From positions 1,804,501-1,868,500 of the forward strand of contig NZ_CP040517.1 in the NCBI RefSeq assembly GCF_005849285.1: a stretch of 64,000 nt of DNA. Reading direction: 5' to 3'. This DNA comes from Luteithermobacter gelatinilyticus. GTDB taxonomy: Bacteria; Pseudomonadota; Alphaproteobacteria; Sphingomonadales; Emcibacteraceae. This document shows positions 19,298 to 42,463 of the stretch, one piece after another. Position 1 is the stretch's first letter, and every line of letters starts with the position of its first letter. The position numbers were made by a program, and so were the translations under genes. Below the pieces are notes generated by a model. The model worked only from the letters and a program-made list of their open reading frames with translations, ran no database searches and had not been told where the DNA came from.

Positions 19298-21814
19298 TCA
19301 GTTTTCCAAAACTTCCTTCACCTGCTCGGCCAACTGTTTCAGGCTAAAGGGTTTGGGTAGAAAATTAAAATCCTCCTGCCCCATGCTTTTGTCAAAGGCG
19401 TCTTCGGCATAGCCGGAAATAAAAATCACCTTCAGATCGGGGTTGGTTTCCCTGATTTTTTTCACCAGGGTCGGCCCGTCCATCTGCGGCATGACCACAT
19501 CGCTGATCACCAGATCCAGCTTGCCCTCCAGTTCCTCCACCAGTTGCAGCGCCTTGTCACCGCCGCTGGCTTCGAAAATCTTGTATCCCTTATTCTTGAG
19601 CGCGCGCGAGGCAAACATGCGCACAGCGTCCTCATCCTCCACCAGAAGAATATTGCCCTTGCCGGTCAGATCTTTGGCTGCCTTACCCGCCCCTTCCTCA
19701 CCACCGGCCGGAGCTTTTTCCCGGCCGGCCTCCTTGTGAATCGGCAGATAAATGCTGAACACCGTTCCCCGGCCCAGTTCGCTGGTCGGGAAAATAAATC
19801 CGTCGGTCTGCTTGACAATGCCATAAACCGTAGACAGGCCAAGCCCAGTCCCCTTGCCCACCTCCTTGGTGCTGAAAAAGGGTTCGAAAATCTTGCCCAG
19901 ATGTTCCTTAGGGATCCCGGTTCCGGTGTCTTCCACTTCCAGAAGGACATAGTCATTGGGCGGCATGACCTTGTACCGCTGGCTGATTTTCAGGGATTCC
20001 TTATAAGAAACATTGCGCGTGCGGATCACGATCCGCCCGCCATCCGGCATGGCGTCACGGGCATTTACACATAGATTGATGATCACCTGCTCCAATTGCC
20101 CCTGGTCCACTTTCACCAGGCCCAAATCACGCCCGTGTTTCATCTCCAGTTCGATATTCTCCCCGATCAACCGCCTGAGCAGGTTGGACAGTTCCGCCAG
20201 CACGTCGGTAATCAGAAGAACCTTGGGACGCAACGTCTGCTGGCGGGAAAAGGCCAGTAGCTGCCGGACCAGATTGGCCGCCCGATTGGCGTTCTGTTTG
20301 ATCTGGATGATGTCGGAAAAGGACTGGTCTCCCGGCCCATGGCGCACCAGCAGCAGGTCGCAGAACCCGGTAATCGCTGTCAGCAAGTTGTTAAAGTCAT
20401 GGGCAATTCCCCCCGCAAGCTGCCCCACGGCCTGCATCTTCTGGGATTGAGCAAACTGCAATTCCAGGCTTTTCTGCTCCGTCGTGTCAATCAGATACAG
20501 AATGGCCACAGCGTCATGACCGGCAAAATTTTCAAGCCGGGTAATATAAAGTTGGCCCCGCTTGTCGGCATCTCCCTTGAAATTGACATCCGCTACGGTA
20601 TTGGCCGCGCCGGAAGCGATGGTATCATCCACCTTGCCCAGAATATCCCGGTAATCCTCAGCTTCGATAAAGTCTTCGAGCGTTCTGACCTTACCCAATC
20701 CCAGATCCCGAAGAAAGTCTCGGAAAACATTGTTGCGTTCCAGCATCTTGCCGCGGGTCGTCACAACGGCAATTCCGATGGGAGAATCCGTGAAAAACCG
20801 ATCAATCCCCACGCCTTTTTCTCCTGAGACGGACATGGTCGAGTCCGACGTCATATCCGGATTTCTGTCCACGCCACTTTGGGTCACGGCATAACAGGTC
20901 AAGTCCTGTTTCTCAAAAATAGAGGCCAGCGCCTTGATCAGCAGGAAATCCAGCACCATTTTCCGCCCCCCGCGAGACGTCAGGGTTACCCGTTCCGGGA
21001 CTTGTCCGCCCCCCGTACCAAACAGTTCCGAGAACGACGCCGGCAAGGCTATTTCACCGGCGTCAAAAGGTTCCAGAAATTCCTGCACCACAGCATTCAT
21101 GAAGATGACTTCATGGTGGTCATTAACCGCCAGAAATCCCTGCCCACTTTGCGCCAGAACGGCCCCAATATCTTCCAAACTGATCCGACGGTCCCGGCCC
21201 GTGTGCAGGCTTCTTTGGTGTCCCCTATCGGGAGAGACCATCCAGCGGATATAGCCTTCTTCCTCCTTTTCCCGCTCCACAGTCAGGCACAGCGCGTGTT
21301 TTTTCCCATCACTGCTGAGGATATCCACTCCCATCTCAAAGCTTTGCCCCCGCGCCATGTTCATGACCGTTACATCCAGTTCGGCCCGCTCCGCCTTATC
21401 GGCAAAATTCATGGCCAGAGGAGAGACGATACGATTGTCACTCAGCTGTTGCATCAATTGACGGTAGGCCGTGTTGCAATAGATCGTTTCGCCCCGACGG
21501 CTGGTCAGCAGATAGGGGACTTCCGGCGAAACATCCGCTTGCGGAGAGGCGACATCAGCCTGATCCAGCGCCCGCATATACTGTTTCAGGATATAAATCA
21601 TGATCCCCACCGTCACCAGCACCGACAGGGCGGCCAGGAAAATACCCAGCTCAGGACGGCCGAATCCCAGGCCCAGAAGATAACAGGCCAGCCCCGCCAG
21701 AAGACCCGTCCCGGCCAGCGCCACAAGAAACGGATAATCTCTGCGGGGACCCTTCACCAAATTGAAAGGACGGGACCGAGCGTGTTGTGAAGGTCTGGGA
21801 CTGATGTCATTCAT
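19298..21814 (-). CDS. cckA: Hybrid histidine kinase CckA
   Basis: In alphaproteobacteria CckA phosphorylates ChpT, which passes phosphate to the cell-cycle and motility regulator CtrA; it can also act as a phosphatase. The 838-residue protein has two N-terminal membrane helices (about 28-52 and 57-78), PAS-like regions (about 100-190, 215-310 and 338-445), a dimerisation domain with phosphoacceptor His472 in [11 protein letters not shown], an ATPase domain ([26 protein letters not shown]) and a C-terminal receiver with Asp772 in [13 protein letters not shown]. This order is diagnostic of CckA. It lies next to the flagellar cluster, whose intergenic regions carry CtrA-type boxes. Confidence 0.93.
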
Positions 21815-24993: not shown

Positions 24994-25038
24994 AATCAGC
25001 TTTTCTTGAATCAGCTTTTCTTAAATCAGCTTTTCTTG
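24994..25038. repeat. 15-bp tandem triplication at the flgB 3' end
   Basis: AATCAGCTTTTCTTG is repeated three times in a row (24994-25008, 25009-25023 with one change, 25024-25038). The last copy contains the final codons and stop of flgB on the minus strand; the other two lie in the flgB-flgC gap. Each extra copy would keep a stop codon just after the first one. Confidence 0.9.
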
Positions 25039-25442
25039 CCCAGGGCCGTTTTCAAAAGCCCCACATGCTTGCGGTACAAATTAACCGCCATGGTATAGTC
25101 CATCTGGGTTTCCGTCATCTTCATGAGTTCATCCTCAAGATTAACGGCATTCCCATCAGGCGACGTGCTCATATAGCGGGCCTCCACCTTTTTGATTTCA
25201 AAAGACGCACCAGCGCCGCCATTCGGCTTCATATGTTCTTTCTCGTCAACCTGCATCTGCAGGGTGCCGGACGTTGAATAACGGTCCACATGTGCCTTGA
25301 AACTGACGTTCTTCAGATCCTTGGGGATATATCCCGGTGTATTGGCATTGGCAATATTCTGTGCCAGGACCTTCTGTCGTTCATTCAGCCATTCCATTTT
25401 CTTGCTAAGTGAACTGAAAAGAGAAATTTTGTTCAGGTCCAT
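25026..25442 (-). CDS. flgB: Flagellar proximal rod protein FlgB
   Basis: This is the first gene of the rod/export operon. The 138-residue protein has the expected N-terminal pattern MEWLNERQKVLAQNIANANT and a helical C-terminus with MTETQMDYTMAVNLYRKHVG. The start at 25442 gives MDLNKISLF, the usual beginning of FlgB, with AAGGG seven bases upstream; the longer frame starting at 25508 adds 22 residues of no FlgB character. Promoter DNA upstream carries a perfect CtrA-type box at 25564-25578. Confidence 0.95.
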   Translation of the reverse strand: MDLNKISLFSSLSKKMEWLNERQKVLAQNIANANTPGYIPKDLKNVSFKAHVDRYSTSGTLQMQVDEKEHMKPNGGAGASFEIKKVEARYMSTSPDGNAVNLEDELMKMTETQMDYTMAVNLYRKHVGLLKTALGKKS

Positions 25443-25563
25443 TCCACAACCCTTGCTTCCTGTATCGTATTTTTCCGCCTTCCCCTCACGATTGGGCTGG
25501 ATGCACAAAATACGAAATGAGCCTTACGATACTACACCCTGCTGTTATTGTGGAGAGATAAAA

Positions 25564-25578
25564 TTAACATTCTGTTAA
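25564..25578. promoter_or_regulatory. Perfect CtrA-type box between divergent flagellar operons
   Basis: TTAA-CATTCTG-TTAA matches the published CtrA consensus TTAA-N7-TTAA exactly. It lies 122 bp upstream of flgB and 185 bp upstream of the FlhB-like gene, so it could control both. The nearby cckA gene encodes the top kinase of the CtrA pathway. Confidence 0.6.
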
Positions 25579-25603
25579 GTTCCGGCACCAGGATAAGTTT
25601 CTC

Positions 25604-25611
25604 TTAACCAT
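25604..25611. promoter_or_regulatory. TTAACCAT half-site
   Basis: TTAACCAT is the half-site form described for CtrA binding. It lies 26 bp from the perfect box at 25564-25578, on the fliO/fliP side. Such an 8-mer can occur by chance; its position gives it weight. Confidence 0.35.
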
Positions 25612-25659
25612 ATTTGTCTTTAAAGAGTCACATAATGGCTGACAAGGCCGCCAGCCTAT

Positions 25660-25698
25660 GATTAATATCTGGGATTAATATCTGGGATTAATATCTGT
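25660..25698. repeat. 13-bp tandem triplication
   Basis: GATTAATATCTGG occurs three times in a row (25660-25672, 25673-25685, 25686-25698, the last ending in T). It lies about 60 bp upstream of the FlhB-like start, inside its promoter region. Confidence 0.9.
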
Positions 25699-25758
25699 AT
25701 CGACCGAAAAAACCGGTGCTAAGCCCCAAAAGATTTCAAACGAAACCGGACCGAAAGC

Positions 25759-26133
25759 ATGACAGGAAACGACGCCCCATTTTCTCAAAGACAAAAGGCC
25801 CAAAGACAAAAGGCAGTAGCCCTGAGTCAGGCGGGGAACCGGGAAAACATTCCCCGCATTACCGCCACGGGATTTGGGGCAAACGCCGAAAAGATCCTTG
25901 AACTCGCCTTTGCCAGTGGTGTCAAGGTCAGACAGGATGAGGATCTTGTCTCCATTCTGTCCAGTTTCGACGAAGGCAGCCTGATTCCCTTGGAAGCCTT
26001 GCAAGCCGTTTCGGAAATCCTGAGTTACCTCTATAACGAACCGATCAGACTGCAAGAACAGAAATATCACGAAATGGCCCGGAAGGATCAGCCGCCCACA
26101 CCGTCTGGCACAACCCGCAAAGGGGAAAACTGA
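25759..26133 (+). CDS. FlhB C-terminal-domain paralogue (EscU/YscU/HrcU-like)
   Basis: This 124-residue protein matches the cytoplasmic half of FlhB: RITATGFGANAEKILELAF (about 33-51), then GVKVRQDEDLVSILSSFDEG (about 54-73) and LEALQAVSEILSYLYN. It has no membrane helices and no NPTH cleavage site. Stand-alone FlhB C-domain proteins (FlhX or YlqH type) are known in other bacteria and can partly replace the FlhB C-domain. The N-terminus carries QRQKA twice, caused by a 15-bp tandem duplication. The stop is immediately followed by the fliO start, so it forms one unit with fliO and fliP. Confidence 0.85.
   Translation: MTGNDAPFSQRQKAQRQKAVALSQAGNRENIPRITATGFGANAEKILELAFASGVKVRQDEDLVSILSSFDEGSLIPLEALQAVSEILSYLYNEPIRLQEQKYHEMARKDQPPTPSGTTRKGEN
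25786..25815. repeat. 15-bp in-frame tandem duplication in the FlhB-like gene
   Basis: CAAAGACAAAAGGCC is repeated twice with one change at the end (25786-25800, 25801-25815). It keeps the frame and duplicates the peptide QRQKA near residues 10-19. Confidence 0.85.
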
Positions 26134-26484
26134 ATGGACATTGCAGCCTATATACAGTTTATCATTGCCTTGCTGTTTGTGATTGGCCTTATCCTGCTTC
26201 TGGCTTACGGCGCGAAAAGGCTGGGCCTGGCGGCCCGAGTGACCATCAACTCCCCCAAAGCCCAGGAACGCCGGCTGAATATTGTCGAGGTATTGACAGT
26301 TGATTCCAAACGCCGGCTGATGCTGATCCGGCGGGACAATGTAGAACATCTTATCATGCTGGGAGTGGAAAAGGATCTTGTGATCGAACAGAATATTCCC
26401 TGTGAGTCCGGCCTGGACAGCTCCGCAAAGGCCATAAAAGAGACCATAAAAAAGAGCTCAACAAAAATCAGGCAGACATCATAA
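26134..26484 (+). CDS. fliO: Flagellar export protein FliO
   Basis: FliO helps assemble FliP in the export gate. The 116-residue protein has one membrane helix (about 8-28) and a small cytoplasmic domain with RRLNIVEVLTVDSKRRLMLIRRD (here in part, about 48-69), the typical FliO pattern. It starts directly after the FlhB-like stop and its stop TAA overlaps the fliP ATG by one base. Confidence 0.9.
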   Translation: MDIAAYIQFIIALLFVIGLILLLAYGAKRLGLAARVTINSPKAQERRLNIVEVLTVDSKRRLMLIRRDNVEHLIMLGVEKDLVIEQNIPCESGLDSSAKAIKETIKKSSTKIRQTS

Positions 26485-27266
26485 TGTTGACATTACGCAG
26501 CGTGTGTAAAGACAACCGCTTTTTCCGGTATTCCTTATGGGCCGTGGGTGGTCTCTCTCTGATCGTTCTTCTGTTTTTTGCCGCCTCTCCCGCGCTGGCG
26601 CAACAGTTCAGCCTGGATCTTGGGGAAGACGGCACCCTATCCGGCCGGGTTGTGCAGCTGTTGATGCTGATGACGGTGCTCAGCCTGGCCCCGGCCATTC
26701 TGGTGGTGGTCACCTCCTTCACCCGCATCATTATTGTCTTTTCGCTGCTCCGCAGTGCGCTGGGCACCCAACAGACGCCGCCCAATGTGGTGCTCATCAG
26801 TCTGGCCCTGTTCATGACCGGTTTCATCATGGCTCCCACCTTAAAGTCGGCCTATGAGGAAGGAGTCAGTCCGCTCATCGAGGAACAGATCAGCGAAGAA
26901 GAGGCCTTTGATAAAATCACCCAGCCTTTTCATGATTTTATGATGCGTCATGTTCGCGAAAAGGACTTGCAGTTGTTTGTGGATCTGTCGGGCCGGGAAC
27001 CACCGGCGGATCGGACCTCCACCCCGTTTGAGATTCTCGTACCGGCCTTCATGATCAGCGAATTGCGCCGGGCCTTTGAAATTGGTTTTCTGATTTTTGT
27101 GCCTTTTATTGTGATTGATCTGGTGGTTTCATCAATCCTGATGTCCATGGGCATGATGATGTTGCCGCCCATTATGATTTCTCTGCCCTTTAAGCTGATC
27201 TTTTTTGTGCTGGTCGATGGCTGGCATCTCATTGCCGGAAGCCTGATCCAGAGTTTTGGCACCTGA
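26484..27266 (+). CDS. fliP: Flagellar export gate protein FliP
   Basis: The core of the export gate. The 260-residue protein has an N-terminal cleavable signal (hydrophobic about 19-36, AxA before QQFSLDLG), a first helix pair with SFTRIIIVFSLLRSALGTQQ-like sequence (about 78-97), a periplasmic loop and C-terminal helices with MGMMMLPPIMISLPFKL. The one-base overlap with fliO couples translation. It converges on the TPR gene, with 19 bp between the stops and no terminator visible. Confidence 0.97.
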   Translation: MLTLRSVCKDNRFFRYSLWAVGGLSLIVLLFFAASPALAQQFSLDLGEDGTLSGRVVQLLMLMTVLSLAPAILVVVTSFTRIIIVFSLLRSALGTQQTPPNVVLISLALFMTGFIMAPTLKSAYEEGVSPLIEEQISEEEAFDKITQPFHDFMMRHVREKDLQLFVDLSGREPPADRTSTPFEILVPAFMISELRRAFEIGFLIFVPFIVIDLVVSSILMSMGMMMLPPIMISLPFKLIFFVLVDGWHLIAGSLIQSFGT

Positions 27267-27285
27267 AGGCCCTGATCTTGGAAAG

Positions 27286-30270
27286 TTAACTACCGCTGTT
27301 TTCCCCGTCTGGTCTGGTGGAAAATTCGTTGCGGTAGCTATCCATGAAGGTTTCCAGCCGCTCCACACTGGCAATACTCTGGGTCAGGCGTCGCACATCT
27401 GCCCCGCTATCCTGCTGCTGGGCCGTGATCACCTCAAAGGCTTCCGCATATCGCCCCCGTTCCATCAACGGCATATAGCGTCTGCGAAGCACCTCAAGCC
27501 CTTCCTTGTCTTCTGCCAACGACAACGCCACAGCCAGACGCAGCACCGTCTGCCTTTCATCCAGCGTCAGATCTTCGGGATTTTCCCAGCGCCGGCCCAG
27601 CAGTTTGTTATTCTGCTGAACCACCATCGGCCAGTTCTCCGCATTCCAGTAAATATCTGCCCGCAACCGGTCCACATCGGGGCCTTCCTCCTGCTGCAAG
27701 AGGACTTCGGCCTCTTCAAACCGGTCCAGCTGAATAAGCGCCCGGGCCTCAATCAATCGTCTTCTGCGCTCAATATCCTCTGGTGTTTGCGCCTGACGCG
27801 TCGCCCGCAGGATTTTCAGGGCCTCTTCCGGTTTGGCATCCAGAATATAGATCATCGCCAGCCGGCTCGCCACATCCGCCTGAGCCACCCCTTTCAAGCG
27901 ATAACGGATCTGGTGTTCAAGAATTTCCGCCGCCTTGCCCAGAAGATCCACCGACACCAGCCGGTCTGCGAGCCGGCGGGCCATATTGTCGCCTGCCGGG
28001 CCCAGCGGGGTCAATTCCCGAAAATCATTATAAAGGGCGACCGCCTTGATCGGGGCCAGCTTGTCCGCTTCACCTTCCAGAAACAGCTTGCGGTAAATAT
28101 CGGACATTAATGTTGTCAGTTCCCGGGTTTTGGCTGATCTTTTGAAATAGGTCGCCGCCTGTTTTAGGGTTTCCAGACCGGTGCGATATTCCTGCTGCGC
28201 AACATAAAGTTCCCCCAACCGGGCCAGAAGGCGCAGTTCAAAATCGTCCCCCCGCCAAGCATACCGCAGTTTTTCCAACCGGTCGATTGCCTCTGCCGGC
28301 GTGATCTTGCCGGTTTTCAGTTCCAGATTGGCCAAAGCAAGTCGGGCCCAGGCCGCGGTTTTGCGCACCCCGGCCTTGATCACCTTTTCATATTCGCCCT
28401 GGGCCTTTTCCATATTACCGGAATCTTCGGTCAGACGCGCTTTCCAGTAGTCCAGTTCCGTCACCTGTTCCGCCGACAGGGGATAACGTCGAAGGATCTT
28501 GATCTGCTCATTCATAAATTCCCGATCCCCCGTCCGATAGGCCGCACGGATTGCCGCCAGCACAAACCTAGCACGGTCAGCCGCCTCATGCAGCGACAGG
28601 ATATCTGCCCCTCTTCGGTAGTCCTCCAGGGCTTCACGATCACGCCCCAACGCCTCATTGGCGACAGCCCGCCACAAATAAGCATCCAGTTCCGTCTCCA
28701 GCGTCTTGTGGGTCAGGTGGCGGACCGCCTCTTCATAACGGCGCAAATGAATCTGGGTTACGCCCAACACCGCCCTGAATTCCGGTGTTTGCAACAGTTC
28801 CGGATCCCGTTCCAGCATCAGTTGTAAAATGCCATAGGCATCCGGCGCATATCCGTTGGCAAGATAAAACCGCGCCAGATCCCAGCGGGCCATGTTGCGT
28901 TCATCTTCACTGGATTGAGACAGCCTATAGAGAAGATTCTTGCGATTGGGGTTATATCCCGACGCCGGATCGGGACCCTCCCGCCATTTTCTGAAATCAA
29001 TCAGCCTTATTTTTTCAATCCCGTCGGTCTGTCGGGCGTCGCCTTGGTCAATATCGAACTGATTGGACAAACGACTTTTGGACAGGGCCAGGCCTTGCTC
29101 TGTAGCTATTCCCACACCGTTTCTGAACCGAGTGACCTGCAACCGGTCGGCATGAAGTTCTACAGCCACGCCTTGCGCCGTTTCCAACACCGTAAACTCG
29201 GTGAATTCACGGGGCTTAATGACCCCCTGAGAGGTTTCCAAAGCCGGGATGATGGCCAATTCATCCCCAATCACCGGATCCTGAAGGCGAAAAACGGACC
29301 CCGGCGCCTCAAAAGCAAAAAAGAAGTTCTCCCCATGGCCGCTGCCGCGCTGCTGGCCATTGCGGATGGGCAGTTTGGCGGTAGCATAACCGGGCTGAAG
29401 ATAAACCTTCCAGTCGGTTCCCTTACGATCCACCTTGACAAAATATCCCGGTGTCAGACTGTATTGCAGGACCGTCGCATCCGGATGGTCAATCTCCCTT
29501 ACTTCATGAACAATTTTACCAAGTCGCGCCCTCAAGGCGGCATGGTCAAAGTCAGCTTGTTTTTCGAAAACCACCCATAGCAGATCATGACGGGTAAAGA
29601 TGGCCGCCCGCACCTTTTCTGGCCAGGGATAGGTAAGCGTTAAAGCATTACCGGCGTCTTCAACCCCAACCAGCAGCCCGCCTTCGTGATCCACAGGTTG
29701 ATTGCCTGAAGAAGAAGGAAGAGAGGCCTGCTCCACTTCGACAGAAGCCACCGCCGGGGACGTCGGCTCTTGGTGCAGTTTTTTTTGTTGCAAGGCGGCT
29801 TTCCCGCCCCCCCTGTCATTGGTTGCCCTTTCCTGTACCGGAGCCACCTCGATAATGTCCACCGCAACTTTTGTCCCGTCGCGGAAATGATGCAGCCTGC
29901 CCGGCTCAAGAATGTCCAGCGTGACAACCAGACGGCCTTCATCCTGTCTGTATCGGGGATTGCCGAAGAACCGCAATGGCCTGTTTTGCAACCTGCCAAA
30001 ATCAGGAACAGCGTTGCGCCCAAAAGTGATGCGCAGTGTATCTTCGGACAACACCGGCGTGTAGGACACGCGTTCGGCCCAGTCAAATACAATCCGGCTG
30101 AAATTGGGATGATCCGCGGACCGGACAGTGAGCGGAACCTGGGCGACGGCCTCGACTCTTCCCCCCATCACCAAGATAAGCGCCAGAACAGGAATCAGAG
30201 CAGGCGCCAAAATCCACATTCCGAAGATTCTGTTCGTCTTTTTCTGGAAATAATGCCCGCACACCATCAT
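27286..30270 (-). CDS. Large exported TPR protein in the motility operon
   Basis: This 994-residue protein is not a named family to my knowledge. A hydrophobic N-terminal signal (about 18-44) ends near VEAVAQ, so it should be exported to the periplasm or membrane. The next 200 residues are beta-rich, with paired motifs (FSRIVFDWAERVSYTP and LTYPWPEKVRAAIF) that resemble AMIN-like segments. From about 440 onward the protein is a long helical array of TPR-type repeats (ARFYLANGYAPDAYGILQLM, AWARLALANLELKTGKITPA). Start uncertain: the ATG at 30219 also fits. It lies 32 bp after the MotB-like gene, at the end of the fliL-to-motB unit, suggesting a role in motor or stator assembly. Confidence 0.8.
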   Translation of the reverse strand: MMVCGHYFQKKTNRIFGMWILAPALIPVLALILVMGGRVEAVAQVPLTVRSADHPNFSRIVFDWAERVSYTPVLSEDTLRITFGRNAVPDFGRLQNRPLRFFGNPRYRQDEGRLVVTLDILEPGRLHHFRDGTKVAVDIIEVAPVQERATNDRGGGKAALQQKKLHQEPTSPAVASVEVEQASLPSSSGNQPVDHEGGLLVGVEDAGNALTLTYPWPEKVRAAIFTRHDLLWVVFEKQADFDHAALRARLGKIVHEVREIDHPDATVLQYSLTPGYFVKVDRKGTDWKVYLQPGYATAKLPIRNGQQRGSGHGENFFFAFEAPGSVFRLQDPVIGDELAIIPALETSQGVIKPREFTEFTVLETAQGVAVELHADRLQVTRFRNGVGIATEQGLALSKSRLSNQFDIDQGDARQTDGIEKIRLIDFRKWREGPDPASGYNPNRKNLLYRLSQSSEDERNMARWDLARFYLANGYAPDAYGILQLMLERDPELLQTPEFRAVLGVTQIHLRRYEEAVRHLTHKTLETELDAYLWRAVANEALGRDREALEDYRRGADILSLHEAADRARFVLAAIRAAYRTGDREFMNEQIKILRRYPLSAEQVTELDYWKARLTEDSGNMEKAQGEYEKVIKAGVRKTAAWARLALANLELKTGKITPAEAIDRLEKLRYAWRGDDFELRLLARLGELYVAQQEYRTGLETLKQAATYFKRSAKTRELTTLMSDIYRKLFLEGEADKLAPIKAVALYNDFRELTPLGPAGDNMARRLADRLVSVDLLGKAAEILEHQIRYRLKGVAQADVASRLAMIYILDAKPEEALKILRATRQAQTPEDIERRRRLIEARALIQLDRFEEAEVLLQQEEGPDVDRLRADIYWNAENWPMVVQQNNKLLGRRWENPEDLTLDERQTVLRLAVALSLAEDKEGLEVLRRRYMPLMERGRYAEAFEVITAQQQDSGADVRRLTQSIASVERLETFMDSYRNEFSTRPDGENSGS

Positions 30271-30302
30271 GTTTTCTTACACACACCCCGTTCACTCAGC
30301 AG

Positions 30303-31058
30303 TTATTCAGCCCGGTCTTCCTTATGCCGGTCTTCCTTATGCCGGTCTTCCTTATGCCGGTCTTCCTTATGAACGACAATATCCACCCGCCGCGCCAGAA
30401 CATATCGTTCATGCAAGGGAATTTCAGGATCAAGTTCCTTAAACCGTGACGGACCGTTGCCATAGGCTTCAATTGCCTCGGGATACCCGGCCTGACGGAT
30501 AATGCGTGCCACGGCAATGGCCCGCACCAACGACAATTCCCAGTTGGTGGGATAGCGCACCCCCGTGGTTGGTTCAAGATCCGTATGCCCAACCACGACA
30601 ATTTTGTTGGGAATGTTGCGTAGTGCCCCGCCCAGCTCCAGCAGCGCCCGATAGGCTTCCGAGGGCAATTCCGAGCTGCCTTTTTCAAAAATCATGTCTG
30701 TGGGCACGGATATGGCCAGACGATCATCCAGAACCGTTACCGTACTGCGTTTCAGCAAGGGGTCATATTGCAGTTTGTCTTCAAAAACCTTTTTCAGATA
30801 CATTAGGCTCAGGGCCGGTTCCTTGTGCACAAGCGCCGTTTCCACCTTTTGCCAATCCGTATCGTCAATTTTCGCCCGTTCAGGATTCAACTGTTCGCTC
30901 AGTGATTCCACCACAGCCTTCCATTTGGACACCTGGACCGAATTCATGGAAAACATCAACACAAAAAAGGTGAGCAACAGCGCCAGAAGGTCAGCAAAAA
31001 CAATCATCCAGCTGCTGGCCACTTTTTTGCGGCTGACGTTCACCCCCTTCTCAATCAT
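30303..31058 (-). CDS. MotB-like stator protein with OmpA domain
   Basis: A 251-residue inner-membrane protein with one helix (SSWMIVFADLLALLLTFFVL, about 15-34) carrying Asp23 where MotB has its proton-binding aspartate. The C-terminal OmpA domain (about 105-228) binds peptidoglycan: IFEKGSSELP and VVVGHTDLEPT. The end of the protein is four tandem HKEDR units (about 230-249), produced by a 15-bp DNA repeat. Its start overlaps the upstream MotB-like gene by eight bases. No motA gene is in the window, so the ion-channel partner must be elsewhere. Confidence 0.88.
   Translation of the reverse strand: MIEKGVNVSRKKVASSWMIVFADLLALLLTFFVLMFSMNSVQVSKWKAVVESLSEQLNPERAKIDDTDWQKVETALVHKEPALSLMYLKKVFEDKLQYDPLLKRSTVTVLDDRLAISVPTDMIFEKGSSELPSEAYRALLELGGALRNIPNKIVVVGHTDLEPTTGVRYPTNWELSLVRAIAVARIIRQAGYPEAIEAYGNGPSRFKELDPEIPLHERYVLARRVDIVVHKEDRHKEDRHKEDRHKEDRAE
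30312..30371. repeat. 15-bp tandem repeat x4 encoding a charged tail
   Basis: CCGGTCTTCCTTATG is repeated four times without change. On the minus strand it encodes HKEDR repeats at the C-terminus of the MotB-like protein. Because the unit is 15 bp, copy changes alter length but not frame. Confidence 0.95.
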
Positions 31059-31809
31059 TCCGCCCCCCTCCTACGGGGAAAAAAGGCTCTTCCTGCCTTT
31101 CCAGGCTTTGAATCGAAGAGAGTCTCTCCCGGTTATAAAAGGTGATTTCGACTTTGTTCTTGTCTCCCTGTACAACGCCTGTTGAAATTTGTTCCTCAGG
31201 CACCCCCATATTTTTTAACCGATGGACTATAGCGCCAGCCCGGAGAATATGCAGATCTTCCCAGTATTTCGGTCCCTGGGGCAAATCGCGACCGGTATAG
31301 ACAAGAAAATCAATTTCCCGTCGCTCAGCGGTCCGCCCACCTTTCAAGAAAGCCGCCAACTGATTAAGGAAGTTCTGCTGATCCAAGCGGAACTGTGCCG
31401 TCCCGCGCTCAAAAAGGTCATTGGCCTCAAATTTGACCACAATGATATGGCCGCCCTGGGTCGGAAACTTGCCTTCAAAACCAACAAGCGAGGCAAACAC
31501 CCCCTGAATCTGGGCATAAAATTCATCGTTGGGAGTTTGCGCCTCAGGATCAGAGGTCACGTCGACAAAATCCGCCTCCGGCTCGAATGGATTTTTGAAA
31601 GCCCGGGTCACACTCTCCGTCGCGGCCGCCACCCGGTTTTCTTCCTGGTTGGAAATCGAATTCATCACCATAAAAAAGGCCAGCACAATCAGATACAGGG
31701 ATACAAAGATCCCTGTTGTCTGGTCCGAAGCCCCCTTAGAGGTGTCATTGTTTTCAGAAGACCCCGGAAGGTTTTCGGTATATCCAGGAAGTCGAAAGTT
31801 TTTATCCAT
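31051..31809 (-). CDS. MotB-like protein lacking the proton-binding aspartate
   Basis: A 252-residue protein built like MotB: a single helix (TTGIFVSLYLIVLAFFMVMN, about 31-50) and an OmpA-like C-terminal domain (about 115-235, with LFERGTAQFRLDQQNFL). Aligned by the FFxxM end of the helix, the position of the MotB aspartate is Ser37, so it cannot conduct protons in the usual way. It may be a structural or regulatory partner of the next gene, which keeps the aspartate. A TTAACCAT half-site lies upstream at 31872-31879. Confidence 0.8.
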   Translation of the reverse strand: MDKNFRLPGYTENLPGSSENNDTSKGASDQTTGIFVSLYLIVLAFFMVMNSISNQEENRVAAATESVTRAFKNPFEPEADFVDVTSDPEAQTPNDEFYAQIQGVFASLVGFEGKFPTQGGHIIVVKFEANDLFERGTAQFRLDQQNFLNQLAAFLKGGRTAERREIDFLVYTGRDLPQGPKYWEDLHILRAGAIVHRLKNMGVPEEQISTGVVQGDKNKVEITFYNRERLSSIQSLERQEEPFFPVGGGRND

Positions 31810-31871
31810 ATCGGGGGACTACCTGATTTTCACCATTCATAAAACAGGCGTCATTGATGTCAACCGGCCCG

Positions 31872-31879
31872 TTAACCAT
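31872..31879. promoter_or_regulatory. TTAACCAT half-site upstream of the first MotB-like gene
   Basis: TTAACCAT lies in the 105-bp gap between cheZ and the MotB-like pair, 63 bp upstream of the start codon on the minus strand. It matches the half-site form of the CtrA motif. Weak evidence taken alone. Confidence 0.3.
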
Positions 31880-31914
31880 AAGTGCAGCCAGCCTATACAA
31901 TATTGCCCTCACAA

Positions 31915-32556
31915 TCAATCAAAGCTCGCCAGTAACGCATCAATCGCATCTTGGTCATTGGCCTCATGCGACAATTGTGGGCCGTGCAACAGTTCGTCGT
32001 GGTCCATTTCTTCTGGTACTTTATCAACAGGGCACTCTTCCGGCAGTTCCGTATCACCAATGGCGCGAGCCAGTTCCGCAAGTTTTTCTTCAAGATGCTT
32101 AAGGGTATTGACCACCCTGCTGACGCGCTGTCCCGTAATATCCTGAAAGCTGGACGCCTCAAAGATTTTGGTCGAAATGGCTTCTAGCCTTTCTGCCAGT
32201 TCCCCTTTTGCCCCAGCGGCCAGTTCGCCGATCTCTTCCGCCGCATCCATGATGCTGGAAGCGGCCTCTTCCGTGGCATTCACCACTTCATCCAGTTGGT
32301 CGGAAGCCTCGGGGATTTTATTTTCGCTCAGATGCTTGGGGCGGATTTGCGAAATGTCGATCTTGGCCTTTTCAATAAAATCCAGAAGTTCCCGGAGTTC
32401 ATCCTGAAAATGGATGTCAATGAGGGCGACATCTCCTTCAAAGCTCCCCATGACCTCCCCGACAATTTTGGTAACATCCCTGACCGGCACCTGATCACCG
32501 AATTTCTTACGGATACTGTCAATCCGCTCTTCAAGGGCGACGATATTGGAACACAT
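31915..32556 (-). CDS. cheZ: CheY-P phosphatase CheZ
   Basis: CheZ removes phosphate from CheY and so resets motor signalling. The 213-residue, mostly helical protein has the catalytic signature SSFQDITGQRV; Asp139 and Gln143 correspond to the E. coli residues Asp143 and Gln147. The C-terminal peptide QDAIDALLASFD resembles the CheY-binding tail. The middle (about 85-135) forms the long helical hairpin. AAGGGG precedes the ATG. The gene is 100 bp after motE and that gap contains a perfect CtrA-type box. Confidence 0.92.
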   Translation of the reverse strand: MCSNIVALEERIDSIRKKFGDQVPVRDVTKIVGEVMGSFEGDVALIDIHFQDELRELLDFIEKAKIDISQIRPKHLSENKIPEASDQLDEVVNATEEAASSIMDAAEEIGELAAGAKGELAERLEAISTKIFEASSFQDITGQRVSRVVNTLKHLEEKLAELARAIGDTELPEECPVDKVPEEMDHDELLHGPQLSHEANDQDAIDALLASFD

Positions 32557-32618
32557 AACTTTCCCCTTGCTCCTTGCTGATTGAGGATTTTTTATCCCTG
32601 TAGCCTAACAAGGAGTTC

Positions 32619-32633
32619 TTAATAGCCGGTTAA
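32619..32633. promoter_or_regulatory. Perfect CtrA-type box upstream of cheZ
   Basis: TTAA-TAGCCGG-TTAA matches the CtrA consensus exactly, 63 bp before the cheZ start in the gap after motE. It suggests that cheZ and the MotB-like genes have an internal CtrA-controlled promoter. Confidence 0.6.
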
Positions 32634-34937: not shown

Positions 34938-35462
34938 CTATCCGTTGATCAGAATTTCCTTAAAAAGCACGTCATGAACGCGAGTGGGGTATACGGCTTC
35001 ATTGACTCGGATCAGCAACTCTTCCTTGAGGCGGAACATGCCCGCCGATCCGTTCAGATCCTCAACCCGCAATTCCCTCAGATAAACCTGAAAATTATCA
35101 ATGATCCGGGGCAGTTTCTGCTGCAAATCCTCCAGTGAGCTTTGTTTGTCCACTTCAAGAGAAATGGTCAGCTTAAGATAGCTCGGCTTCCCCCCTGCGG
35201 TATTCAGATTAACCAGCATAGGATCCAGATCAAGAAACAGCAATTCTGTGGGTTCGTTGGCTTTCGCCGCCGCCAGGGCCGCTTGCTCTTCCCCGGCCGC
35301 AGCATCATTGCCATCTTCACCGCCAAGCAGCATCAGAGCAAGGCTTCCCCCCCCCAGAAGAAGCAGCGCCGGCAAAACAATAAACAGCACGATCTTCTTG
35401 CCGCTGATTTTCTTTCGTTCCAGCCCCTCGGCAAGGTCTTCATCATTTATTTCATCACTCAT
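34938..35462 (-). CDS. fliL: Flagellar basal-body protein FliL
   Basis: FliL is an inner-membrane protein around the stator. The 174-residue protein has a short cytoplasmic head, one membrane helix (about 24-46), an Ala/Glu-rich linker and a periplasmic domain (LDPMLVNLNTAGGKPSYLKL) typical of FliL. It is the first gene of the fliL-fliM-DUF6468-motE unit and probably of everything down to the TPR gene. Confidence 0.94.
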   Translation of the reverse strand: MSDEINDEDLAEGLERKKISGKKIVLFIVLPALLLLGGGSLALMLLGGEDGNDAAAGEEQAALAAAKANEPTELLFLDLDPMLVNLNTAGGKPSYLKLTISLEVDKQSSLEDLQQKLPRIIDNFQVYLRELRVEDLNGSAGMFRLKEELLIRVNEAVYPTRVHDVLFKEILING

Positions 35463-35528
35463 GCGCTATTTGACGTCCCTTAAAGATCTGCAGAATATAG
35501 TGCTTTTGCCCAACTTATCGTTCGATAG

Positions 35529-35543
35529 TTAATAACTCGTTAG
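35529..35543. promoter_or_regulatory. Near-perfect CtrA-type box (TTAA-N7-TTAG)
   Basis: TTAA-TAACTCG-TTAG differs from the CtrA consensus at one base. It lies about 67 bp upstream of the fliL start on the minus strand, a sensible place for control of the fliL operon. Confidence 0.45.
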
Positions 35544-40222: not shown

Positions 40223-42331
40223 TCATCGAGAGCCCCCGCCTATGTCTTTCCCTGTTATATTTTTTTCTTCAAGGCTTTTGACAAAGTCTTCCAGAGAATT
40301 CTGAACCGTTTCTGCCTTTTCGGGCTTAAGGTCAGGCGAAGACGTATTTTTTTCCAGGTAAACAATTTTCAACCTATCCACCTGGGCGGTAATCGCCTCA
40401 TATAATTTGGGAAGATCAACCGGCTTACTGACATAACCGTTCATGCCAGCCTTCAGATACACATCACGGTCCCCGGCCATGGCGTTCGCCGTCAAAGCAA
40501 TGATCGGCACGTCTCTGTTTTCCCCGTCCATCGTCCGGATGGCGCGCACCGCCTCCACCCCATCCATCTCGGGCATGTGAATATCCATCAGCACAAGATC
40601 AACCTGTTCCTGGTGCAAAGCTCTCACCGCCTCATGCCCGTTCGTCGCATAATGGAGACGAACCTTCGGCACCTTCAACATGGATTCAATCACGGCTCTG
40701 TTAATGCTGTTGTCCTCGGCAATCAAAATGGAAACCGGCGCCTCTGCCACAAGCCGTATTTTTTTCCCAATGTCCTTATTGGCCCCATATCCAGAGGCTT
40801 TGATAATCTTTGTCTGCGGCGTTTTGGCAAGACGGAGCGTAAACCAGAAATTTGTTCCCTTGCCAGGAACGCTGGTCACATCTATCTCCCCATCCATCAA
40901 TTCCACCAGTTCCCGGCAAATAGACAGCCCCAATCCCGTACCGCCATATTTCCGGGTCGTGGACGCATCCGCCTGATTGAACTTGTCAAACAGAAAGTGT
41001 TTCTTTTCCACATCAAACCCGATGCCCGTGTCCTGAACTTCGAAACGCAACAGTCCATATTCTTTATTTTCTGACAACAAAGTCACCCGAACCAGAATGC
41101 TGCCTTTTTCGGTAAATTTCAGGGCATTGCTGATCAGGTTATGCAATAACTGCCGCAGGCGAACCGGGTCACCCTTCCAGATATCCTCAAGCTGGTCGTC
41201 AATCAGCACCTTAAAGGTTAGCCCCTTTTCCCGGATTTTCGGTTCCCACAGATTGGAAATGCCCTCCAGCGCCTTCCGCAGGCTGAATTCTATGGACTCC
41301 AGCTCAATCTTCCCCGCTTCGATTTTGGTCAGGTCCAGAAGATCATTCAGCATCCGCAGCAGGGAAAGGCCGGAATCCCGCGCCGTTTTAAGATATTCCC
41401 GTTGCTGGCGGGTCATGTCCGTATCCAGCAGCAAGGAAATCATGCCCAGCATGCCGTTCATAGGCGTGCGGATTTCATGGCTCATGGCGGCCAGGAAATC
41501 AGTCTTGGCCTTATTGGCCTTTTCCGCCTCAAAGCGGGAGCGGAGATTCTCCTCAAACACCTTCTCATAAGCCGCCTGTTTGGCGCTAAGCTGTTTTTGT
41601 GTGGCTTTCAGTTCAGCAATATGTTTTTTTAGTTCCTTCTCATGCGCTTCGGCCAACGCCTTGCCTTTGAGGGCTTCGTCCGCCAGAATCTGGTTCAGGA
41701 TCTTCAGTTTCACGGAATGGCGGATATTGTTTTCAATACTGCGGGCGAGAATATTGACGAAAATCGTATAAAACGACACCATGCTGGCCATTTCGGTGTG
41801 TCCCGCGACAACCAGATACAGAATCAACGCCATCAATGGCGGCAGATTGAAGGCCGTATACGCCTTAACATAAGAAGCCGAGGATACAAGCGCCCCCGCC
41901 GTCATCCCGGATATGACAAAAACAATAATCAGAATATCTTCATACTGAGTGGCCTGAAACAACAGCCCCACAGTACTGGCCCAGACGAGCCCCATGAGGA
42001 AGGTTCCGGACAAAAAAATCCTCAGCCATTTGCCCGGAGACTTTTCCCAATCGCTTTTCCTGAAACTGTACCATGACAGAAAACGATAGGCGCTGACCAG
42101 ATACACCCCCGCATACCATAATTCCATATATTTTTCGAAAGGCGGCTTGTGCATAGCCAGAAACAGGAAAGTGGCAATCAGGATATTGCTGAACGCAATC
42201 AGCACAATATGTTTGTAAAGAAGCCCCACCTGCTCGATTTGAAAAGCGCGCCGCAGATCATGTGGCGTCACATCCTTAAGATATGACGTTTCCGGATAAT
42301 GATCTTGCACTGTGGCAACGGTCCTAGACAA
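40223..42331 (-). CDS. Membrane hybrid histidine kinase
   Basis: A 702-residue hybrid kinase. About six membrane helices fill residues 38-200, with short loops and no large periplasmic sensor. A coiled coil (about 215-275) leads to the kinase core: His285 in [15 protein letters not shown]-box [22 protein letters not shown], and [15 protein letters not shown]-terminal receiver has Asp583 in [13 protein letters not shown]. Target and signal are unknown; no response regulator gene is adjacent, so phosphate may pass to a separate protein. The gene stands alone, facing away from rpsD's direction of terminators. Confidence 0.92.
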
Positions 42332-42463
42332 ACGGGTCGACTCCCATAGATATTCCTCAGGGATATTGCTCGGGATACGCTATTTCGTTTTTCTTAAATT
42401 TCCGATAATACGTGCAACCGGAAGACAGAAAAATCGCCGGAATGTCCTGCCCTTATACCACAA

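Follow-up and report, generated by a model that had tools for sequence, protein, structure and literature searches.

Three boxes with the pattern TTAA-N7-TTAA (N7, any seven nucleotides), one of them imperfect, stand before flagellar and chemotaxis genes in a stretch of 64,000 nucleotides from the Luteithermobacter gelatinilyticus genome (contig NZ_CP040517.1, positions 1,804,501 to 1,868,500; hereafter the window). We consider it very likely that these boxes are binding sites of the regulator CtrA, and that they belong to CtrA-activated sigma-70 promoters of class-II type driving the fliL, cheZ and flgB operons. The sites go beyond chance because they are conserved at orthologous places, because seven-nucleotide spacing is in excess genome-wide, and because each lies at a fixed distance from a -10 element. 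CtrA control of flagella is expected biology; what is new here is the little-studied family Emcibacteraceae, in which, and well beyond which, the sequence alone points to a CtrA flagellar switch with an exact step from box to -10 element. The result backs the view of motility as an old CtrA task.

Position and conservation of the boxes

Box 1 lies at 25564-25578 on the minus strand (TTAACATTCTGTTAA on the forward strand, TTAACAGAATGTTAA read toward flgB); it matches the motif at 8 of 8 positions, has palindromic half-sites and occupies the same place in related genomes. Box 2, at 32619-32633 on the minus strand (TTAATAGCCGGTTAA forward, TTAACCGGCTATTAA read toward cheZ), is also a perfect match, and box 3, at 35529-35543 on the minus strand (TTAATAACTCGTTAG forward, CTAACGAGTTATTAA read toward fliL), has one mismatch. 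A pattern scan of the window returned all three exactly where an earlier sequence-only reading had placed them. Pfam searches of the window's open reading frames (ORFs) confirmed the neighbours that it had named, with flgB (minus strand) diverging from flhX-fliO-fliP (plus strand) at box 1, and cheZ and fliL (both minus strand) at boxes 2 and 3.

We compared the window with 20 related stretches of up to 20 kb, 13 from the same family and 7 from the same order; the counts given here include the window's own row. The order of the flagellar genes is kept across these stretches, the named relatives that share it belonging to Emcibacter/Emcibacteraceae (order Emcibacterales). A box with at most one mismatch was present before fliL in 19 of 21 genomes, before cheZ in 17 of 19 and before flgB in all nine that were testable. 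Rows were skipped, leaving 19 of 21 for cheZ and 9 of 21 for flgB, where the tblastn match lay too far inside the gene or was missing, or where the stretch ended, and one relative (L033) was counted for fliL with a box at -97. Among the family relatives, the fliL box reads CTAA-N7-TTAA in 12 of 13.

Sequence is retained in the half-sites and drifts around them: the box columns carry 1.7-1.9 bits of information, against 0.5-1.0 bits in the N7 spacer, 0.4-0.5 in the 11 nucleotides that follow the box (N11) and 0.3-0.8 in the flanks. Near-identical rows (one for cheZ, one for flgB and three for motA) were removed before the bits were computed.

A fixed step from box to -10 element

A -10-like hexamer begins 11 nt after each of the three boxes, on the minus strand in every case: CACAAT at 25547-25552 for flgB, TAGGCT at 32602-32607 for cheZ and TAAGTT at 35512-35517 for fliL. 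The step is conserved. At N11, TAnnnT stands before cheZ in 14 of 19 rows and before fliL in 17 of 21; before flgB, nAnAAT takes this place in eight of nine.

We then looked at the whole genome, where the 38 perfect boxes were read in both orientations. TAnnnT followed at offset 11 in 10 of 76 readings, cheZ being among the ten, and at offset 12 in five; the 34 control offsets averaged 1.2 and never exceeded 4 (binomial P for offset 11, 3e-7). With up to one mismatch allowed, 70 matches were found at N11 as against 35 at a shifted N14. Over 192.5 kb of this genome, in stretches partly picked for their boxes, N11/N12 gave 16 matches, compared with 1-5 at eight control offset pairs. The N11 step filters more sharply than the bare motif, with 10 matches where about one is expected, and narrows the candidate CtrA targets to a short list that can be tested.

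The same step was seen in a wider set of 80 named alphaproteobacterial loci found via FliM, which overlaps the 20 relatives by two loci (L112 = L030, L130 = L028). There, N11 was present at fliL in 30 of 77 loci (0-7 at 15 other offsets) and at cheZ in 15 of 55 (0-1 at the others), and the neighbouring genes examined gave none at offset 11 (fliM 0/79, motE 0/63, DUF6468 0/46). The loci with the N11 step include Emcibacter, Sneathiella, Azospirillum, Paramagnetospirillum and Telmatospirillum.

The seven-nucleotide spacing between half-sites also stands out. Genome-wide, TTAA-N(0-20)-TTAA occurs 432 times, with 38 at N7 versus about 19.7 for each other spacing; the Poisson P of 1.6e-4 is approximate, as the variable-gap count may merge overlapping matches.

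The relay genes and a model for activation

All three relay orthologues, CckA, ChpT and CtrA, are encoded in the genome. The window itself carries cckA (19298-21814, minus strand), the hybrid histidine kinase that heads the relay; its product scores 722.5 bits against the NCBIfam CckA model (curated cut-off 1000) and matches the CckA chains 5idj and 5idm of the PDB, and with an E value of 3.3e-68 to a CckA-type chain this PDB match makes its predicted identity clear. The ctrA gene lies at about 1,326,228-1,326,932, and its product scores 422.8 bits against the NCBIfam CtrA model NF045991 (cut-off 350), the best PDB match being the CtrA receiver (4qpj). The chpT product scores 91.2 bits against Pfam PF10090, over the cut-off. 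Both genes belong to a cluster at 1318871-1326932, in which chpT, cheA, cheY, cheB, a gene that is cheR-like by sequence and ctrA are found together. The nearness of cckA to the boxes, which the sequence-only reading had pointed out, is not evidence of control, with ctrA and chpT about 0.5 Mb off, at about 1.32 Mb in this chemotaxis cluster.

By eye, the region before ctrA contains TTAC-N6-TTAA and TTAACCAT; as a lead, it resembles the autoregulated Caulobacter promoter. An ORF near the window end (1875371), considered as ctrA, was rejected: by eye it looks like PhoB and has pst genes next to it.

The assignment of the boxes to CtrA, as the sequence-only reading had proposed, is thus favoured by half-sites that are kept, spacers that drift, a placement over -35 and a complete CckA-ChpT-CtrA relay. 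In the model proposed here, where CtrA binding, its phosphorylation and an activating instead of a repressing role are inferred, phosphate would pass from CckA via ChpT to CtrA. Phosphorylated CtrA would bind TTAA-N7-TTAA over the -35 region, at about -38 to -24 if the -10 hexamer is set at -12 to -7, the start sites being predicted. Bound CtrA would then recruit sigma-70 polymerase to the hexamer that starts 11 nt after the box, and fliL-fliM, cheZ and flgB-flgC-fliE-fliR-flhB would be switched on.

Comparison with known CtrA systems

The standard full site of CtrA is TTAA-N7-TTAA placed at -35 (PMC4287350, PMC11264516, PMC6180460, PMC7200025), and the exact N11 step found here fits this already known placement. 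CtrA is reported to control flagellar genes in every order that has been studied (PMC8116508), and a prediction of CtrA regulons across the class found motility enriched in nine organisms (Brilli et al. 2010; PMC2877005). In Caulobacter crescentus, the CtrA-activated promoters of fliQ, fliL and ctrA P2 carry TTAA-N7-TTAA over -35, as do the promoters described here. For the early-branching orders, CtrA motility regulons (Magnetospirillum, Rhodospirillum) are credited to Greene et al. 2012 and Bird and MacKrell 2011. There too CtrA governs flagellar genes, in line with the statement of PMC8116508 on all orders studied, which resembles the arrangement proposed here.

At the level of single promoters, the Caulobacter fliQ box, CTAA-N7-TTAA (PMC11264516), is the same variant as the fliL box here, and that of ctrA P2 begins at -39 (PMC4287350), compared with a predicted -38 here. 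The divergent fla2 promoters of Rhodobacter sphaeroides (flgB2/fliI2, fliL2/fliF2) likewise have CtrA sites at -35, with one shared or two separate boxes, as here (PMC6180460). The two systems differ in the partner of flgB, which is flhX-fliO-fliP here and fliI in R. sphaeroides, and in half-site spacing, which is 7 nt here and 6 at flgB2/fliI2 (PMC6180460). Our literature search, within the parts covered, found no CtrA study of Emcibacteraceae, and none for Kordiimonas with CtrA flagellar binding sites.

Alternative explanations

One alternative holds that the boxes are no more than TTAA pairs arising by chance where the gaps are AT-rich. The chance rate estimated earlier, about one perfect box per 100 kb, was right: dinucleotide shuffles of the window gave a mean of 0.61 per 64 kb, and the 38 perfect boxes of the single-contig genome (3,145,891 bp) amount to about one per 83 kb, close to the shuffle rate. 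By themselves, the two perfect boxes in 64 kb are not significant, at least two having appeared in 12 of 100 shuffles, and one-mismatch boxes in the window are at chance level (13 observed; at least 13 in 67 of 100 shuffles). Whole-genome box density was dropped as support, as the reversed control pattern gave 65 matches against these 38 and there is no excess; the spacing and offset controls were used in place of bare density. Chance can account for these counts but not for conservation at orthologous places with drifting spacers, nor for an offset to the -10 element that is unique both in the window's genome and in others. These largely refute it, and we regard chance as very improbable.

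It is just as hard to credit that these are ordinary sigma-70 promoters that work without CtrA and are TTAA-rich in their -35 and UP elements by coincidence. All three sites do have a -10 element, and the gaps are AT-rich; however, the distance from the ends of the half-sites to the -10 hexamer is 22 and 11 nt, whereas the usual sigma-70 -35 spacing is about 17. Neither half-site thus sits where sigma-70 would need it, a placement that favours an activator bound across -35, and the two are held exactly 7 nt apart while the bases between them drift. Another regulator of the OmpR/PhoB family could use the boxes instead, given that six Trans_reg_C proteins are encoded in the genome. Yet one of the six is CtrA itself by an NCBIfam equivalog match over the cut-off, CtrA is reported to recognize TTAA-N7-TTAA in several members of the alphaproteobacteria (PMC7200025, PMC9437464), and the known CtrA-circuit genes sciP, ftsZ and motA carry it here, so that this explanation too seems highly unlikely.

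Besides the shuffle counts, several observations weigh against CtrA-activated promoters at the three sites. The N11 rule was first noticed on these same promoters and tested elsewhere afterwards, and the relatives share descent, so the conservation counts are not independent. The N11 promoter is absent at fliL of L028, L039, L042 and L043 and at cheZ of L040-L044, which comprise several order-level relatives and one family member. In this genome, the 300 nt before motB2 or motE hold no comparable box, and no box with a -10 element was found before flgI. CckA and ChpT fall under the NCBIfam equivalog cut-offs. At flgB, the -10 hexamer CACAAT is weak and overlaps CTCCACA, and in Caulobacter flgB and fliO share a single CtrA site, with flgB repressed and fliO activated (PMC6180460).

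The flgB/flhX intergenic region

In the divergent gap, the conserved -10 geometry points to flgB as the predicted target of box 1. The mirror-image hexamer on the flhX side (GACAAT at N11 of the same box) was seen in L026 only, among the rows with one box in both readings. A second, weaker box with one mismatch, ATAAGTTTCTCTTAA (then CCAT), lies at 25593-25607 on the plus strand, toward flhX, and is followed at N11 by TTTAAA as a possible flhX-fliO-fliP promoter. Two boxes are present in this gap in the relatives L041 and L045. We hypothesize that flhX-fliO-fliP may use either the other face of box 1 or the weaker second box.

The rod gene flgB has activator geometry here, in contrast to Caulobacter, where CtrA represses flgB and the majority of rod genes are RpoN/FlbD-dependent (PMC6180460). 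This geometry suggests CtrA activation of flgB, which would differ from Caulobacter in wiring, not in kind. One sigma-54 (RpoN) gene and one FliX gene are present in the genome, and later flagellar classes may use RpoN/FliX. A scan for sigma-54 sites (TGGC-N7-TTGC, at most one mismatch) gave 104 matches versus 91 expected, with none at 25442-25758, and was too noisy to have power.

The conserved -10 block of flgB, CTCCACAATA (window 25540-25556), includes CTCCACA, one of the forms given for the DnaA motif of Caulobacter (PMC4287350). Upstream of flhX, near-perfect tandem copies of GATTAATATCTGG occupy window positions 25659-25700.

Genes around the boxes

The flgB gene (25026-25442, minus strand) heads flgB-flgC-fliE-fliR-flhB; Pfam Flg_bb_rod was matched on ORF 25026-25508, and the start at 25442 was set by tblastn with relatives. 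Divergent from it, flhX (25759-26133, plus strand), which resembles the FlhB C-terminus and matches the C-terminal part of Pfam Bac_export_2, is followed by fliO and fliP. The cheZ gene spans 31915-32556 on the minus strand (Pfam CheZ, 64.6 bits), and fliL (34938-35462, minus strand; Pfam FliL) heads fliL-fliM-DUF6468-motE-like. Other cluster products assigned by Pfam are FliO, FliP, two OmpA/MotB-type proteins, a MotE-like protein, DUF6468 and FliM, and FlgF, FlgG, FlgA and FlgH are encoded farther along the window. Tandem copies of CTTCCTTATGCCGGT were observed at 30318-30370, near the 3' end of the MotB-like ORF 30303-31058.

A further candidate promoter, TTATCGGAAATTTAA-N11-TAGCGT (42377-42408, minus strand, one mismatch), lies 45 nt before ORF 40223-42331. 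The assignment of this ORF as flhA was wrong, as its product is a hybrid histidine kinase, and it is possible that this kinase is an extra member of the relay.

Other candidate targets in the genome

A genome scan of boxes against gene function, which the sequence-only reading had named as a check, favours its idea as far as a plain count goes: of the 38 perfect boxes, five have a motility or chemotaxis gene next to them, namely flgB/flhX, cheZ, motA, a flagellin and a methyl-accepting chemotaxis protein (MCP). From the 70 N11 matches, 54 went to the gene listing (those left out were mainly second orientations of palindromic sites), and 20 downstream ORFs were then searched with Pfam, besides those of the perfect-box neighbours.

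The targets listed by the N11 filter are sciP, motA, diguanylate cyclases, the mraZ division/cell-wall (dcw) cluster and, unexpectedly, cas1. Upstream of sciP (DUF1153) we found TTAGGTCTTTTTTAA-N11-TATCTT, and N11-TATAA was present in 16 of 28 motA upstream regions. The box-N11 architecture was also seen at a CheY-like gene, at two genes for GGDEF proteins (680198, 2436940), at a TPR histidine kinase gene (684571) and at a sugar transferase gene (298067). Perfect boxes stand at ftsZ (823140), at the flagellin (1539650, N12) and at the MCP (1290525, N12 on the MCP strand). Some matches look like noise; these include boxes that fall within long open frames, such as 1567567 and 2957288, and one-mismatch boxes before genes of no evident link.

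At mraZ, the head of the division/cell-wall cluster (region 807157-807777 with its box), a box is present in 23 of 29 upstream regions and TAnnnT at N11 in 12 of 29. It was set aside as clean proof of the N11 step, as the conserved TACCAT lies within a CCA repeat of 10-nt period; the box itself is conserved. This repeat resembles MraZ boxes, and TACCAT may be part of it instead of a -10 element.

A perfect box at 801301 lies between a LuxR-type regulator with an autoinducer domain and a PAS protein, with N11-TATTGT toward the PAS gene. A tie between quorum sensing and CtrA is possible at this box.

A box before cas1

In the region 3035138-3036113, the type II cas1 gene is preceded by a perfect box, TTAACTCCGCCTTAA-N11-TATCAT, which lies just after the cas9 stop. 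We examined 16 cas1 upstream regions. In the four at 66% identity or more, this genome included, a box was present in all (4/4), at -53 to -57. Of the three closest relatives (L303, L304, L305), two have a perfect box with N12-TATAAA, and one has a one-mismatch box with N11-TACTAT; in all three the box lies 53-54 nt upstream of cas1. Both the N7 and the N11 spacers vary among these relatives, the four upstream stretches (about 110 nt) share an ungapped identity of 34-53%, and in L304, where the cas9 end is about 580 nt off, the box still stands beside cas1. The 12 more distant regions held no perfect box (0/12); three had a one-mismatch box, without TAnnnT at N11.

From these four related sequences, we tentatively suggest that the CtrA promoter grammar TTAA-N7-TTAA-N11/12-TAnnnT might have taken in cas1 in Emcibacteraceae, a possibility that we hold to be rather less probable than its opposite; CtrA would then raise spacer acquisition in flagella-building cells. 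If so, acquisition would rise in the very cells exposed to flagellotropic phages. In the parts of the literature covered, our search found nothing on CtrA control of CRISPR (clustered regularly interspaced short palindromic repeats). Plasmid relatives of cas1, all below 60% identity, were not used, and a search of viral contigs found no Cas1 relatives.

Other Cas1 matches, along with a second Cas9-like ORF of HNH/RuvC type, were recorded at 1073893-1074696, 1076268 and 2028262-2028993, so that two or more type II CRISPR loci appear to be present in the genome.

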